A stretch of DNA of 64,000 nucleotides from Serinicoccus hydrothermalis (GTDB lineage: Bacteria > Actinomycetota > Actinomycetes > Actinomycetales > Dermatophilaceae), in the NCBI RefSeq assembly GCF_001685415.1, contig NZ_CP014989.1:1860001-1924000 (forward strand), given 5' to 3'. Positions 37,186 through 43,663 of the stretch are shown here, one piece after another; the stretch's first letter is position 1; the number at the start of each line of letters is the position of its first letter. The position numbers and the translations under genes are program-made. Below the pieces are notes generated by a model, which was given only the letters and a program-made list of their open reading frames with translations, ran no database searches and was not told where the DNA came from.

Positions 37186-37549
37186 GTGCCTGACAACCCC
37201 TTGTTCCACGACGCCGCTGCGTCTCGTCGACTGCCGACCCGCGAGCATCCGTCGTGGACGCCGCGCAGCGCCGAGCGACACCTCCATCAGGTCTCTCGAC
37301 GCTGGTGAGAAGCGTACGTCCAGCACGGGCCGTGCGGTAGCCCCACCTGCGTTTTCTTGACCAAGCCGAAACCTGGGACGTCACAGAAGTCACACGGGTC
37401 ACTCATTTCACACGGCGTCGACGGGCGGCCGTGCCCCGTCCACCCGGGGGTGGTCCGTTCGTCAGGTCCGGCCGCTGGGGTATGGGCTACGTTGCTGTCC
37501 TGGTGCTCACCGCCGAGCTCCGTCGAACCCCGTGAGGAGATCCGAACGC
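37186..37549. other. Divergent promoter region between two wall-protein genes
   Basis: 364 nt without a gene, separating the M15-like gene (minus) from the nucleotidase gene (plus). It contains four tandem TCAC-bearing 9-bp units at 37380-37415. A possible -35 TTGACC lies at 37357-37362. GAGGAG serves the nucleotidase. I see no coding frame. Confidence 0.6.
37380..37415. promoter_or_regulatory. Four tandem 9-bp repeats, MtrA-like response-regulator site
   Basis: The units GTCACAGAA, GTCACACGG, GTCACTCAT and TTCACACGG follow each other without spacing; TCAC is invariant. Direct 9-bp repeats with GTCACA are how I remember MtrA sites in mycobacteria, and MtrA controls wall-hydrolase genes in actinobacteria. 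Both flanking genes encode cell-wall proteins. Confidence 0.55.
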
Positions 37550-40264
37550 ATGTCCCACCGAACCCCTCCCGCACGACGCCGCCTCGTGGCGGTCGGTGCC
37601 GCGGTCGCGCTGGTGAGCGGAGGTGCCGCGGTCGCCACCAGCTCCGCCGCGGCGCCCGGCTCTCCGTTGAAGGCCGCCCCCGAGATCGAGGACCCGAGCG
37701 AGGCGCTCCGGATCTCGGGCACCGACCGCTACGGCACCGCGGCGGAGATCGCCCGCGCCTTCCCGGCCGACGCCACCGACACCGTGGTCGTCGCCTCCGG
37801 GCAGGTCTTCCCGGACGCCCTGAGCGCGCAGCTGCCCGCCTCCTCCGCCGCCGTCGCGGCCGGGCTGGCCAGCCCGGACGTCGACGGCGCCGGCCTCCCG
37901 GTGCCGATGCTCCTCACCAAGCAGGACCAGCTCCCCCAGGCCACCGCCTCCGCCCTGGAGGACCTCGCCCCGAGCCAGATCGTCCTTGTCGGCGGCGACG
38001 TCGCCGTGTCCGACGACGTGGAGGAGGCCCTGGAGGGCTTCGGCGCCGAGGTCACCCGGGTCGCCGGCGCCAACCGCTACGACACCTCCGCGGAGGTGGC
38101 GAGCCTCTTCCCGACCGGCCTGCCGGTGCTCTACCTCGCGACCGGCACCGACTACCCGGACGCGCTGACCGGCGGCGCCCGCGCCGGCCGGGACGGCGCG
38201 CCGATGCTGCTCACCGACCCGGCGCAGCTGCGGCCGAGCACGCTCGAGGCGATCCAGACCCTCCAGCCGGAGTCGGTGGTCGTGCTCGGCGGCTCCGGTG
38301 CCGTTTCCGACGACGTGGTCGAGGCCGTGACCGAGCTCGTCCCGGACACCACGCGGGTCTTCGGGTCCGACCGCTACGGCACCGCCGTGGCCCTCGCCTC
38401 GACCTACGAGTACGACTCCGTGGCCTATCTCGCGAGCGGGCAGGACTACCCCGACGCGCTGACCGGTGGCGCCTTCGCCGCCTACCACGAGGGCCCGCTC
38501 CTGCTCGGCAAGGCCGACGGGGTGCCGACGGCCACCGCGACCGCCCTGGACCAGCTCTCGCCGCAGGGCCTGGTGCTCTTCGGCGGCGAGGGAGCGCTGG
38601 AGAAGGCGCCGGTGGAGGACGCGCTCAACGCGGTGCTGCCCGTCTGGGTCGACGAGCTCGTCGTCCAGATGCTCTCGTTCAACGACTACCACGGGCACAT
38701 CGAGGAGGAGGACGGGACGCTCGACCCCGAGCAGGACCCCGACCAGAACCTCGTCGGGGGCGCCGTCAACCTCACCTCGACGCTCGAGGCGCTGCGCACC
38801 CGCTCCTTCGACGACCAGACCCTGACCGTCGCCGCGGGCGACCTCATCGGTGGCTCCACCTTCGTCTCCGGCCTCTTCCAGGACGAGCCGTCGGTCGAGA
38901 CGCTCGAGGTCGCCGGGCTGGACGTCTCCAGCGTCGGCAACCACGAGTTCGACGAGGGGGTCGAGGAGCTGCTGCGCATGCAGGAGGGCGGATGCCACCC
39001 CGAGCGCGGCTGCTTCGAGGACGAGCCCTACGACGGCGCCGACTTCCAGTGGCTCGCCGCCAACGTCGTGGACAAGGAGTCCGGCGAGTCGATCCTGCCC
39101 GGCACCGAGGTGCGGACCGTCGACGGCGTCGACGTGGGCTTCATCGGCATGACGCTCGAGGACACCCCGACCCTGGTCAGCCCCGGTGGCGTGTCCACCG
39201 TCGACTTCCTGGACGAGGTCGAGACGGCCAACGCCCAGGCGGCCCAGCTGCGCGAGCAGGGCGTCGAGTCGATCGTCGTGCTGCTGCACGAGGGTGGCTA
39301 CCAGACCGGTGGCTACGACGCCTGCGAGGGCATCTCCGGCCCGGTCGTGGAGATCGCGGAGAACCTCGACCCGGCCATCGACGCCGTGGTCACCGGGCAC
39401 ACCCACCAGCCCTACGTCTGCACCATCCCCGACCCGGACGGCGCCGACCGCCTCGTCACGAGCGCCAACCAGTACGGCCGCGTCGTGACCGAGACGGCAC
39501 TGACGATCTCCCGGGAGAGCGGCGACGTGACCCGGGACCGGGCCTACGCCCACAACAACCTGGTGCTGCAGTCGATCGCCGACGACCCGGAGACCGCGAG
39601 CGTCGTGGACAAGTGGGTCGCCCGGGCCGAGGTGCTCGCCGGCGAGGTGGTCGGCACGGTGGCCGAGGACATCACCGGCGACGCCGGCGGTGACCGTGGC
39701 ATCGAGACGCCGATGGCCGACCTCGTGGCCGACTCCATCCTCTGGGGCACCGACGGCGAGGACGAGGGCGGTGCGCAGATCTCGTTCATGAACGTCGGCG
39801 GCGTCCGCGCCAGCCTGCTGGTGGACCAGATCAGCAACGGCGAGGCGCCCGGCGAGGTCACCTACCAGGAGGCCTACAACGTCATGCCGTTCGGCAACCT
39901 CCTGGTGTCGATCGACATGACCGGCGAGCAGGTCAAGGCGGTGCTGGAGCAGCAGTACGTCCCGGACCGCGGGCGCCCCTACCTCGCGCTGGGTGTCTCC
40001 GAGGGCTTCACCTACACCTGGGACGACAGCCAGCCCGAGGGCAGCAAGGTCAGCGACATGCAGCTCGACGGTGTCCCGCTGGAGATGGACGAGACCTACC
40101 GGGTCTCGACCCTGAACTTCCTCCAGCAGGGTGGTGACAGCTTCACCGCGTTCACCGAGGGAACCAACCTGGTCGGCGGCCCCGAGGACCTGGCCAACCT
40201 CGTGGACTACCTCCGGGCCACCCCGGACCTCACCGCTCCCGAGGACCGCGTCGAGGGTCTCTGA
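37550..40264 (+). CDS. Wall-bound 5'-nucleotidase/metallophosphatase with CWB2 repeats
   Basis: A 904-aa secreted enzyme. A signal peptide (about residues 1-36) is followed by three CWB2 wall-binding repeats (about 55-345: ISGTDRYGTAAEIA, VAGANRYDTSAEVA, VFGSDRYGTAVALA). A calcineurin-like metallophosphatase has the ligands NDYHGH, GNHEFDEG and GHTHQPY. A 5'-nucleotidase C-terminal domain completes it (GNLLVSIDMTGEQVKAVLEQQY, NFLQQGGDSF). It should hydrolyse nucleotides or related phosphate esters at the cell surface. GAGGAG lies about ten nt before the ATG at 37550; a GTG 18 nt earlier is less likely. The gene ends in a very strong terminator. Confidence 0.93.
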   Translation: MSHRTPPARRRLVAVGAAVALVSGGAAVATSSAAAPGSPLKAAPEIEDPSEALRISGTDRYGTAAEIARAFPADATDTVVVASGQVFPDALSAQLPASSAAVAAGLASPDVDGAGLPVPMLLTKQDQLPQATASALEDLAPSQIVLVGGDVAVSDDVEEALEGFGAEVTRVAGANRYDTSAEVASLFPTGLPVLYLATGTDYPDALTGGARAGRDGAPMLLTDPAQLRPSTLEAIQTLQPESVVVLGGSGAVSDDVVEAVTELVPDTTRVFGSDRYGTAVALASTYEYDSVAYLASGQDYPDALTGGAFAAYHEGPLLLGKADGVPTATATALDQLSPQGLVLFGGEGALEKAPVEDALNAVLPVWVDELVVQMLSFNDYHGHIEEEDGTLDPEQDPDQNLVGGAVNLTSTLEALRTRSFDDQTLTVAAGDLIGGSTFVSGLFQDEPSVETLEVAGLDVSSVGNHEFDEGVEELLRMQEGGCHPERGCFEDEPYDGADFQWLAANVVDKESGESILPGTEVRTVDGVDVGFIGMTLEDTPTLVSPGGVSTVDFLDEVETANAQAAQLREQGVESIVVLLHEGGYQTGGYDACEGISGPVVEIAENLDPAIDAVVTGHTHQPYVCTIPDPDGADRLVTSANQYGRVVTETALTISRESGDVTRDRAYAHNNLVLQSIADDPETASVVDKWVARAEVLAGEVVGTVAEDITGDAGGDRGIETPMADLVADSILWGTDGEDEGGAQISFMNVGGVRASLLVDQISNGEAPGEVTYQEAYNVMPFGNLLVSIDMTGEQVKAVLEQQYVPDRGRPYLALGVSEGFTYTWDDSQPEGSKVSDMQLDGVPLEMDETYRVSTLNFLQQGGDSFTAFTEGTNLVGGPEDLANLVDYLRATPDLTAPEDRVEGL

Positions 40265-40273
40265 CCCCGGCAC

Positions 40274-40313
40274 GACGAAGGGCCGCCACCCGCACGGGTG
40301 GCGGCCCTTCGTC
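40274..40313 (+). terminator. Strong terminator after nucleotidase gene
   Basis: Perfect 19-nt arms (40274-40292 and 40295-40313) pair with almost no loop (practical loop GCAC). It lies 10 nt beyond the stop codon. The AAGGGCC arm opposite GGCCCTT makes it effective for the opposite direction too. Confidence 0.85.
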
Positions 40314-40330
40314 ATACCTGACCCCGGTGC

Positions 40331-40418
40331 GTCAGCCCTTCTCCGCGCCGGCATTGGCGCCCTGGGTGAAGTAGCGCTGGAAGAAGACGATCGCGGTCGG
40401 GATGGTCATGAGCAGGCC
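40331..40418 (-). pseudogene. Detached 3' end of an ABC sugar permease gene
   Basis: These 88 nt match the last 94 nt of the permease gene at 42776-43663. They differ by a 6-nt deletion and about two substitutions, and encode the same C-terminus (QRYFTQGAN, GAEKG, stop). Homology stops abruptly at 40418, where the AT-rich insertion begins. It is therefore the left remnant of an insertion-site duplication. Confidence 0.85.
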
Positions 40419-40569
40419 CGCCCTGAGTAACGGCACATTGCGGAGGCCGTCACCGGTTCAGAGATTACGCTGCTGCCCCAGTCTTCGCGTCCCTAACAGT
40501 CTTGCCCATGGCGCGGACAACTCAAACCAGATACCTTCTCTGTAAGACATCGCTACAGATCGGGGCCAT

Positions 40570-42168
40570 ATGGATTTCATCATTGAGCACGAGAGCGCCA
40601 TCCGCACTCTCAGTATCGTCGTTGGCGCCCTTGCTGCGATTGCCACACTCATATTCAATGCAGTGTCACTGCGCAACCTGACGACGGAACAAAAGCAATC
40701 CAGCGACTTGTTGCGCAAAGAACACGCTTCACTTATTTCAGTGTGGGTCATAAGTGGACCGCCACACACACTCGTAATCTCAAACAAGTCCAATGTCCCA
40801 GCAGCCCATGTGGCCTGCCGAACATACACGCCGAGCGGAACGCAGAGCTTTTATACTTACACTCGGTCTCTTCCTCCTGGTGAACACCAAATGCCAATCC
40901 GGGCTCAGGAACCACACAGTGTAGATATCTCGTACACCGATCATCGGGGTCAACGCTGGCGCCGCAATAGACATCAAGATCTTGAATTTTTCAACAAATC
41001 ATTCACACTGAGCAGTGGCGTGGACTTGGAGCCAGTTCTGAAGAAAGCCGCTAGGGAGTTCGAAGAAGACTTTGGAGTACGGGCGAGTTACAAGAGGCAC
41101 GATGGAGGCCGTCCGCTAAGGAGCCAGTTCTTGGCTAGCCGGCTCGAACCCGAAGCAGCACTTGACGCCATAGTTGGCGCTGATGACTGGCTCGGAGAAT
41201 TGAAGCAGCACGCCATGCTTAGACCCATATCGCCACCAAGGGCTATATCAGAAGGGGCACCGACCCACCGCTACTGGGAGCGTCTCGCTGCGGATGGCCT
41301 GTACTTCGGGGCACCGATTGCGCTAGACACGATGGTCGCCCATATCAATCGCGACATCGTCGGGGATGTTGAGCATCGGAGTTTGATCGACCTTTTCAAT
41401 TGCGATCACGCAGCCACACGACATAATCAGCCCCGGCGTCTGATCATTGGGGCATATTCAAAGAAAGGAAATCCGGAGCCATTTGTCTTCTGGCCCCTTC
41501 TTCAGAGTTTCGGCATCTCACTTTTTGCGAGAGACGACGCTACTCGGTCCTGGGTCCCTGATGAGAGCGTCTTCGATTCTCTTGCTTTAGAACCTCAGAG
41601 GTTGGCACGCTTCCGCTCTTGGGTTGCACGTACTCCGGAATTGAGCTCTTACAAGTTTGATCAGGATGAGGCGCGCAAAAGGTTTAAGTTTGGTGAATAC
41701 GCGATTCTCATAGATACTGTCTCTGCTCGCCGTCACTACACGCGCCTGCAGGACAACGTCGACATAATCCCGCTAAAGACTGGCTTTGGGGCCGAAACGG
41801 GGATCTTCATGTCTCATGTTTTTTACGCCTCAGAATTCGGTCCAAACAGAACCGTCGCTCAAGACTACTTGCCCCTGATGATGGATGACGAGACGATCTC
41901 CGACATGCTGGGTGACGAACTTCTCATGCCGGTTATTCGTGGAAATCAAGTTGTCATCACGAGTGACGTGGCGCGGGACGTGTGGAGCACGGCGGAGGCG
42001 GCTTCGGCCATGCCCAATGGTCCCTTTGCAGACAAGTTTTGGCAATGGGCGTCCCACTTTATTGCCAACATTATCCGCCAAGAAGAAGGGATTGAAGATG
42101 TCAGAAACAGTTCGAGAAGGGCCCTTGCCGCGTTGGTTCAAGCGGAAAAGGAGGCTTATTCAAAGTAG
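40570..42168 (+). CDS. Membrane-anchored protein with maltose-binding-protein-like domain
   Basis: A 532-aa protein. One membrane helix (residues about 13-33) is followed by a beta-sandwich-like segment (about 55-135: PHTLVISNKSNVPAAHV, SLPPGEHQMPI, SYTDHRGQRWRR). From about 150 to the end it follows the order of ABC solute-binding proteins such as MalE: AAREFEEDFGVRASYK, an ADDWLGELKQHAMLRPI block, FGAPIALDTMVAHINRDIV, FVFWPLLQSFG, FGEYAILIDTV, MPVIRGNQ and FWQWASHFIANII. It lacks a lipobox, so it is not an ordinary transporter subunit; the helix orientation is unclear. It overlaps the next gene by 71 nt. My reading is a tethered ligand sensor; this is inference. Confidence 0.8.
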   Translation: MDFIIEHESAIRTLSIVVGALAAIATLIFNAVSLRNLTTEQKQSSDLLRKEHASLISVWVISGPPHTLVISNKSNVPAAHVACRTYTPSGTQSFYTYTRSLPPGEHQMPIRAQEPHSVDISYTDHRGQRWRRNRHQDLEFFNKSFTLSSGVDLEPVLKKAAREFEEDFGVRASYKRHDGGRPLRSQFLASRLEPEAALDAIVGADDWLGELKQHAMLRPISPPRAISEGAPTHRYWERLAADGLYFGAPIALDTMVAHINRDIVGDVEHRSLIDLFNCDHAATRHNQPRRLIIGAYSKKGNPEPFVFWPLLQSFGISLFARDDATRSWVPDESVFDSLALEPQRLARFRSWVARTPELSSYKFDQDEARKRFKFGEYAILIDTVSARRHYTRLQDNVDIIPLKTGFGAETGIFMSHVFYASEFGPNRTVAQDYLPLMMDDETISDMLGDELLMPVIRGNQVVITSDVARDVWSTAEAASAMPNGPFADKFWQWASHFIANIIRQEEGIEDVRNSSRRALAALVQAEKEAYSK

Positions 42169-42703
42169 CGGAATGCAGCATGTGGATGAGAGGGCTTTCC
42201 AAGCGCGAGTAGCGGAATTCAACGCCTTGAGGGCTGAGATAACGCAGCGCTCGACCGCGCAGTTGACTTGCTTGACGGGAAGTTTGGCGACTGCCGCACT
42301 TGCATTTTCATCGCTGGGCGCTGGGTCTATCTCTACTGCATCTTTAATACCATCCATCATCAGCCCAGCATTCGGTCTGATGTGGGTCGATCATGCTGTG
42401 CAGATATCCAACATCGGGAAGTACATTCGCGAGGACTTGGGAGGGAAGGACGGACTCCCTCTGTCGTGGGAGAGCAGGTCCAATAGGTTTAGAGAGGTTC
42501 CAGGAAAAGTTCTCGAATACGGTCTTCCCGTTGCTTTCAGTTTCTTGCTACCGGCGATAGTATCCATCTTCCTGGGCGTTGGGCTAGTAGCGGAGGGAGG
42601 TGCTTGGTTTGATCGGATAATTGTGGGGCTTGGATTTGTTGCGTCTGGTTTATACACTTTTCTCATGGTAGGCGCAATCCGATCATTTCGAGGTGACACC
42701 TGA
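42098..42703 (+). CDS. Four-TM membrane protein, partner of the MalE-like sensor
   Basis: A 201-aa protein. A basic N-terminus and a helix with FNALRAEITQRSTAQ (41-55) lead into membrane helices at about 55-75, 80-97, 141-163 and 173-195. The loop between helices 2 and 3 contains IGKYIRED and LSWES. It resembles a loose class of small bacterial membrane proteins with N-A-L-R-x-E-I before the first helix and I-x-x-Y-I-R-E after the second, often orphan or next to sensor genes. GAAGAAGGG precedes the ATG at 42098; the in-frame ATG at 42173, just past the upstream stop, is the alternative. A channel or effector role is only a hypothesis. Confidence 0.75.
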   Translation: MSETVREGPLPRWFKRKRRLIQSSGMQHVDERAFQARVAEFNALRAEITQRSTAQLTCLTGSLATAALAFSSLGAGSISTASLIPSIISPAFGLMWVDHAVQISNIGKYIREDLGGKDGLPLSWESRSNRFREVPGKVLEYGLPVAFSFLLPAIVSIFLGVGLVAEGGAWFDRIIVGLGFVASGLYTFLMVGAIRSFRGDT

Positions 42704-42774
42704 TTGGTCGGCGTCAAGTAGGCTGGCCGATCTCCTCACTAGGAGGGCGGGAAGTGGCTCTCGGCCCTTCGAAT

Positions 42775-42868
42775 GTCAGCCCTTCTCCGCGCCGGTGTTG
42801 GCGCCCTGGGTGAAGTAGCGCTGGAAGAAGACGAAGACGATCGCGGTCGGGATGGTCATGAGCAGGCC
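42775..42868. repeat. Right copy of the permease 3'-end repeat
   Basis: The last 94 nt of the intact permease gene, matching 40331-40418 except for 6 extra nt and a few substitutions. Together the copies bracket the AT-rich insertion as imperfect direct repeats. Confidence 0.8.
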
Positions 42869-43663
42869 GGCCATCATCGTGATGGGGTACTGGTTGCCCG
42901 ACCCGAGACCGCCGCTGGTGAGGCTGGCCAGCCCGCGGGTCAGGGTGTAGAGCGAGGAGTCGTTGGTCGCGATGATGAAGTGGCCCAGCTCGTTCCACGA
43001 CCCCTGGAAGGACAGGATCGTCAGCGTGATGAGCGCCGGCCGCGCCATCGGGAGCACGACCGACCAGAACGTGCGGAACGGACCGGCGCCGTCGATCCGG
43101 GCGGCCTCCTCGATCGAGGGCGGGATCTGCTCGAAGAACTGCTTCATGATGAAGACGCCGGCCGCGTCCACCGCCAGCGGCAGGATGAGCGCCGGGTAGG
43201 AGTTGTAGATCCCCAGGTAGTTGATGACGAGGAACTTCGGGATGAGCAGCACGATCCCCGGCACCGCCATGAGCGCGAGCAGCACGGTGAAGACCGTGTC
43301 CCGGCCGAAGAACTTCAGCCGGGCCAGGGCATACCCCGCCATCGAGCAGAAGAGCACCCGCATCGCCGTGACGAAGAGGGTCACGACGACGGAGTTGGTG
43401 AACCACAGCGGGAACTGCGTCTCCAGCAACCGGTTCCAGGCGTCCAGGCTGAACGGGTCCGGGACGAGGGAGAGCGGGTTCTCCACCGCGTCGGAGTTGG
43501 TCTTGAAGGCGGTGACGAGCTGGATGACGAAGGGGTAGATGTAGATGATCGCGAAGGCGGCCAGCGCGGCATACACGAGCATCTTCTTCACCGAGGTGTC
43601 CCGCTCGCCGACGGCGCTCGTGCTCTCGGTCCTCGCCCTGGGCTCCTCCGTGGTCGTGCTCAT
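42776..43663 (-). CDS. ABC sugar permease (MalG type)
   Basis: A 295-aa inner-membrane permease with six helices and the EAA loop (SIEEAARIDGAGPFRTFWSVVLP) that contacts the ATPase. It is the second permease of a carbohydrate importer with the binding protein and MalF-type permease encoded upstream. No ATPase gene is present, as is usual for actinobacterial sugar importers that share MsiK. The ATG at 43663 overlaps the MalF-type stop by 4 nt. The intact 3' end here adjoins the foreign insertion. Confidence 0.92.
   Translation of the reverse strand: MSTTTEEPRARTESTSAVGERDTSVKKMLVYAALAAFAIIYIYPFVIQLVTAFKTNSDAVENPLSLVPDPFSLDAWNRLLETQFPLWFTNSVVVTLFVTAMRVLFCSMAGYALARLKFFGRDTVFTVLLALMAVPGIVLLIPKFLVINYLGIYNSYPALILPLAVDAAGVFIMKQFFEQIPPSIEEAARIDGAGPFRTFWSVVLPMARPALITLTILSFQGSWNELGHFIIATNDSSLYTLTRGLASLTSGGLGSGNQYPITMMAGLLMTIPTAIVFVFFQRYFTQGANTGAEKG

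Follow-up and report, generated by a model that had tools for sequence, protein, structure and literature searches.

Two genes on the plus strand formed a low-GC islet at positions 40423-42774 of the window (the whole 64-kb stretch of DNA analyzed), flanked by genes for a 5'-nucleotidase and for a malG-type ABC permease. The first gene, P0001 (40570..42168), encoded 532 amino acids and the second, P0002 (42098..42703), encoded 201 amino acids. A non-coding part on the left (40423..40569), which did not align to five relatives, and another on the right (42704..42774), read from the sequence, completed the islet. The sharp drop in G+C noticed in the initial annotation was recovered, with 54-59% in the three 1-kb bins covering both open reading frames vs 67-75% in the surrounding bins. 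Codon use was foreign, as had also been noticed: GC at the three codon positions was 0.58/0.44/0.56 for P0001 and 0.54/0.50/0.53 for P0002, compared with a third-position GC of at least 0.80 in 37 of the 43 other frames of the window, these frames having been picked by a script that favors high third-position GC. Both frames described earlier as overlapping genes were present, but the overlap depended on the start chosen for P0002 (71 nt from the start at 42098, none from a possible alternative ATG at 42173). The conserved domain of P0002 began at about 42179.

The islet was bordered on both sides by an imperfect direct repeat of about 92/97 bp, corresponding to the last ~97 bp of the malG-type gene. 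The right copy (42775..42872) was the present 3' end of malG (42776..43663, minus strand; PF00528, 1.2e-18), with its outer edge one base past the malG stop codon, and malG, both host gene and insertion target, was complete despite the insertion at its end. The left copy (40331..40422) was a displaced duplicate of this 3' end (91% identity over query positions 1-95, E 5.9e-31), which had drifted and displayed a 6-nt gap relative to the right copy and to five relatives. One base common to both copies differed in all five relatives, which points to a duplicate derived from this lineage or from one very close to it.

Long matches to malG (at least 80%) were obtained in 5 of 30 other genomes of the genus, and the islet was absent from the malG site in all five. 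Of these relatives, whose malG is orthologous, three (L068, L069 and L072) harbored an uninterrupted single-copy site, where the left flank continued directly into malG through one copy of the segment; the other two (L070 and L071) harbored malG without the islet, but their left neighborhood was different. The repeat and the empty sites bore out the earlier claim of a foreign cassette, and their pattern is that left by an element recombining into a gene end and regenerating the gene. Neither the flanking repeat, which is the strongest evidence of insertion, nor the membership of the neighboring gene in a maltose-type ABC operon was part of the initial annotation. Compared with site-specific islets, the direct repeat at a gene end and the empty sites were found and an integrase of its own was not, only P0001 and P0002 filling the space between the repeats; the islet may have been mobilized in trans, or its integrase may have been lost. 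A target duplication of transposon type was rejected because of the position of the repeat edge one base past the malG stop codon and of the repeat length, ~97 bp being far too long for such a duplication.

A strong hairpin (40269-40318) separated the 5'-nucleotidase gene from the displaced malG end, and a stretch resembling it by eye occupied the same place in L068, L069 and L072. The 5'-nucleotidase-type protein (37532-40264) displayed three CWB2 cell-wall-binding matches.

Hydropathy of P0001 indicated one clear transmembrane (TM) helix at residues 14-32, in agreement with the single helix first described, and a second, marginal hydrophobic stretch at residues 53-71 (hydropathy 1.26), which was taken for a strand and not for a TM segment. 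The beta-sandwich announced for the same protein was not established: its sole source was an AlphaFold model built from the single sequence (pLDDT 35, too weak for a fold search), and a beta domain at residues ~56-134 is possible. The full-length MalE-like domain, in turn, held up (residues ~143-513). The NCBIfam MalE model NF007011 matched residues 157-513 at E 7.3e-9, with 34.9 bits for an equivalog cut-off of 291, and SBP_bac_8, the only Pfam family found in P0001 and P0002 at E up to 10, scored 18.7 bits on P0001, below its cut-off of 27. Maltose-binding proteins from the PDB matched at 1.7e-9 for the best one (residues 155-268) and at 1e-5 and weaker for the full-length ones. An hhalign comparison with three true binding proteins gave E 9.4e-15 over residues 143-504, and upheld the solute-binding fold that the initial annotation had proposed to check. 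Among the 61 columns invariant in these three proteins, P0001 kept 26 and lost 35; the kept ones include the D in HD(W/R) and the W in MP.IP....W, and the lost ones the GPW motif. Judged on these alignments, the assignment of a complete MalE-like solute-binding domain to P0001 is solid.

P0001 resembled the MalE/SBP_bac_8 solute-binding proteins (maltose/cyclodextrin-type) by its full-length domain match and differed from them by an added TM helix and linker, a perhaps cytoplasmic location, the lack of a lipobox and scores below the curated cut-offs. Neither a lipobox nor a typical signal peptide was seen by eye in its N-terminus, and no transporter or permease gene was found inside the islet, as reported earlier; the neighboring malG belongs to the maltose-type operon of the host, whose permease genes have their own binding protein. 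P0001 therefore lacked both the export signal or lipobox and the ABC permease partner of its own that characterize MalE-type proteins. One K/R and three D/E preceded the helix, and four K/R and three D/E were counted in the loop after it, a charge bias leaning weakly to a C-in orientation with the MalE-like domain in the cytoplasm. This orientation would be reversed if the 53-71 stretch crossed the membrane.

The four TM segments announced for P0002 were consistent with the four long helices of a low-confidence single-sequence AlphaFold model (pLDDT 56.5, too weak for a fold search) and with its kinship to a four-TM (4-TM) family, although hydropathy separated three TM stretches. No match to P0002 was found in Pfam, NCBIfam, PADLOC or PHROG. 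Its first link to the 4-TM family was a weak match (E 0.025) in a phylum sample to a locus of the same class, L018. The relative encoded there, used as query, retrieved nine matches, spread over 8 of the 60 genomes searched in its order (the source genome of this relative among them), as well as six plasmid records, four of which were fetched. A combined profile including P0002 found members in 6 of 216 genomes of the class, one of them being the source genome of the window. The family alignment encompassed 13 sequences, namely eight of the nine order matches, one class member from the combined profile and four plasmid proteins.

The family profile recovered P0002 with 13.5 bits (E 0.0033), for a best score of 4.9 bits among 500 shuffles. 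With hhalign, P0002 scored 46.7 (E 8e-7) against the 13-sequence alignment, while 100 shuffles and 46 frames of the window reached 20.5 at most. P0002 shared 19-29% identity with the family members compared and retained their helical layout and ten invariant columns (E40, E47, L63, L83, G93, I103, G107, Y109, L114 and W124), but the family motifs RIGFRDNL and NDEKI and a nearby phosphorylase gene were absent. These comparisons place P0002, as a divergent member, in an uncurated 4-TM family; given this divergence and the two missing motifs, the role of P0002 may differ from that of its relatives.

The 4-TM family was hosted by the Streptomyces plasmid pLBRS, three cyanobacterial plasmids and nine actinobacterial genomes. 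Of 13 loci, 12 (L083-L086 and L109-L116) carried a PNP-type phosphorylase gene no more than about 2.5 kb away from the 4-TM gene, as detected by tblastn with four phosphorylase proteins on stretches of 8-16 kb; the exception, L073, had no PNP gene in 16.5 kb. Pfam family PF01048 was present in all seven family loci tested. NB-ARC domains above the Pfam cut-off adjoined in L109 and L110, an nSTAND match below the cut-off was obtained in L113, and L115 displayed NB-ARC similarity by tblastn (8e-18). The best outside match of P0002 confirmed by the family profile, L087, which is not among the 13 loci counted, yielded no phosphorylase by the same tblastn test, which left its 4-TM gene undetected as well. 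The 4-TM-like frame of L087 (5830-6447, minus strand) contained an in-frame stop before the would-be last two helices, and its neighbors resembled, by eye, a peptidoglycan-binding membrane protein and an Hcp-like protein. The 64-kb window gave no tblastn match to phosphorylase; in the islet, the enzyme was absent and the 4-TM protein was partnered by the MalE-like P0001.

Among the building blocks of predicted bacterial conflict systems, Kaur et al. (2020, PMC7159879) and Kaur et al. (2021, PMC8195603) include STAND ATPases, PNPase domains and membrane components; the 4-TM family goes unnamed in the conflict-system passages of both papers. By analogy, the neighborhood of the 4-TM family has the layout of such predicted systems. 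No paper was recognized, among the matches listed, as describing the family or the P0001-P0002 pair. The initial interpretation was partly supported, its small 4-TM protein belonging to a family found mostly beside PNP-type genes, and in part beside NB-ARC/STAND genes.

The pair itself had been expected to be conserved, and no second instance was found in any genome, plasmid, phage or viral set sampled, nor in pattern scans, so that co-evolution of P0001 and P0002 is not demonstrable and every functional claim made below is limited. Genome samples overlapped, and their strict cut-offs, which kept out ordinary binding proteins, may also have hidden true relatives with weak scores. No pair was obtained from 248 genomes of the order searched at 0.001 with P0002 and with the N-terminus of P0001 (each query had a single further match, G117 and G055, both judged spurious from their loci), from 396 genomes of the phylum searched with P0001 at 1e-20 and P0002 at 0.1, or from 149 genomes of the family searched with P0001 at 1e-15, a sample covering 8 of the 30 other genus members among the matches listed. 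P0002 matched 37 other genomes of the phylum at E up to 0.1, of which 29 provided a locus. Seven of these loci were read on one strand, with L009 and L017 on the opposite strand, and a profile search of both strands of these two loci gave a score for L009 but none for L017. A motif screen of the P0002 loci (six left out) was discarded as too narrow, having missed L009 and L018. The P0001 N-terminus had 15 other matches at 0.02 in 246 genomes of the phylum, and the P0001 architecture was found in none of the six looked at (L098 being a short frame only).

Scans of viral_contigs with P0001, P0002 and the P0002 motif, of phages with P0001 only, and of genome_contigs with P0001 octapeptides and the P0002 motif, all of which see close relatives only, gave no pair; as a control, the P0002 motif matched the window itself. 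Nothing was confirmed in viral scans for MalE relatives and the 4-TM family. Plasmid scans, which likewise see close relatives only, gave no pair either: P0001 matched six records (malE genes of Salinivibrio in four, plus one record each from Aeromonas and Arthrobacter, the latter an ordinary transporter lipoprotein), and P0002 none at 0.01 and two at E 3 or worse. Such relatives of P0002 as were found occurred with a phosphorylase and not with a solute-binding protein, which comes partway to the situation that the initial annotation regarded as fatal to its proposal, homologs occurring singly and never as a pair.

Neither protein had a PADLOC match at E up to 1. Ten neighboring proteins formed no defense island and displayed generic ABC/MerR-type PADLOC matches only, so the anticipated enrichment near defense genes was not seen; their mad/AriA matches were set aside as generic ABC and MerR similarity. 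In antiphage systems made of two genes, such as Kiwa and Hailong, one product is a small multi-TM protein. The islet is comparable to them by analogy only, through a small membrane protein and its partner, and it differs from them by the lack of PADLOC matches. The antiphage role proposed for the pair is hypothetical, and the islet draws more interest from its insertion signature and from the genes that accompany the P0002 family than from that role. EACC1 is described as a two-gene membrane-associated conflict system, prevalent in actinobacteria, in which TM helices followed by an extracellular PBP domain are a variable part behind a caspase (passages of Kaur et al. 2020, PMC7159879). The islet also consists of two genes, and is membrane-associated, actinobacterial and provided with a TM plus PBP-type domain, but it contains no recognizable caspase or cyclase gene (Pfam, E up to 10) and was therefore not assigned to EACC1. 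By analogy, the remark on TM-PBP proteins in these passages offers a precedent for the layout of P0001.

The insertion signature, the fold of P0001, the family membership of P0002 and the phosphorylase context of that family (in part with NB-ARC/STAND) are best accommodated, with a probability of about 0.4, by a rare, horizontally acquired sensor-effector module, probably of conflict type, in which a binding-protein fold takes the place of the usual enzyme. A non-autonomous insert would have recombined into the 3' end of the malG-type gene, regenerating that end and bringing in a membrane module of two genes. P0001, anchored by its one N-terminal helix, would act as the ligand sensor through its MalE-like clamshell, which would face the cytoplasm more likely than the outside, and P0002 would be the membrane effector. 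The clamshell would close on the binding or loss of a ligand, perhaps saccharide- or nucleotide-like, that appears or changes during infection or stress, and closure, transmitted through the linker region by a putative physical coupling, would lead P0002 to open or assemble, possibly as a pore, the cell being depolarized or arrested for a presumably defensive purpose. A more specific version is doubtful, namely a new two-component immune-type switch, brought to the end of a sugar-permease gene by a minimal islet without integrase. In it, a membrane-tethered MalE clamshell in the cytoplasm would stand in for the nucleotide-processing enzyme and gate a 4-TM effector directly. The adjacency of P0001 and P0002 could also be accidental.

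The fold of P0001, its partly kept sugar-binding pocket and the vicinity of a maltose-type ABC operon would suit a non-defensive sensor of sugar or of the cell envelope, with P0001 as the saccharide-binding part and P0002 as a non-killing regulator of transport or envelope stress. Such a sensor is nevertheless rather unlikely, since the location of the islet is accounted for by the repeat, kin of P0002 adjoin phosphorylases, and P0001 had no phmmer match to the binding protein of the adjoining operon, while a binding protein elsewhere in the genome matched it (1.4e-13). An outside-facing MalE-like surface receptor, as suggested for EACC1 TM-PBP proteins in the passages of PMC7159879, with P0002 relaying the signal inward, appears unlikely: the missing lipobox or typical signal peptide and the weak charge bias for C-in argue against it, and the islet lacks a caspase gene, SBP_bac_8 being its only Pfam family. 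On its side stand the export of true MalE relatives, the extracellular position given to PBP domains in the same passages and the possibility of a second hydrophobic stretch in P0001.

It is quite improbable that the islet is inert or decaying passenger DNA, left over from a larger element that has lost its remaining genes, the integrase included. The presence of only two genes of note between the repeats, the drifted left repeat with its 6 missing nucleotides and the absence of the islet from this site in all five relatives whose malG is orthologous are consistent with such a remnant, but both frames are open and domain-complete, which is unlikely for long-decayed genes.

Should a MalE-like clamshell indeed gate P0002 in the sensor-effector module, the 4-TM partners of phosphorylase conflict modules could be wired to small-molecule binding proteins, and a transport-type binding protein triggering a membrane effector would represent an unusual route from nutrient uptake to immunity. 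The 4-TM family and its phosphorylase likely constitute, by analogy with predicted systems, an under-described conflict module of Streptomyces and cyanobacterial plasmids and of actinobacterial genomes, which is directly testable independently of the islet.

A protein of ~660 amino acids was also encoded between the phosphorylase and the 4-TM gene in several of these loci. It had no Pfam match in the three copies tested (L083, L112 and L115), and was located at L112:5615-7600, L115:3047-5023, L083:1923-3893 and L116:5668-7587, the L116 copy displaying 27% identity.
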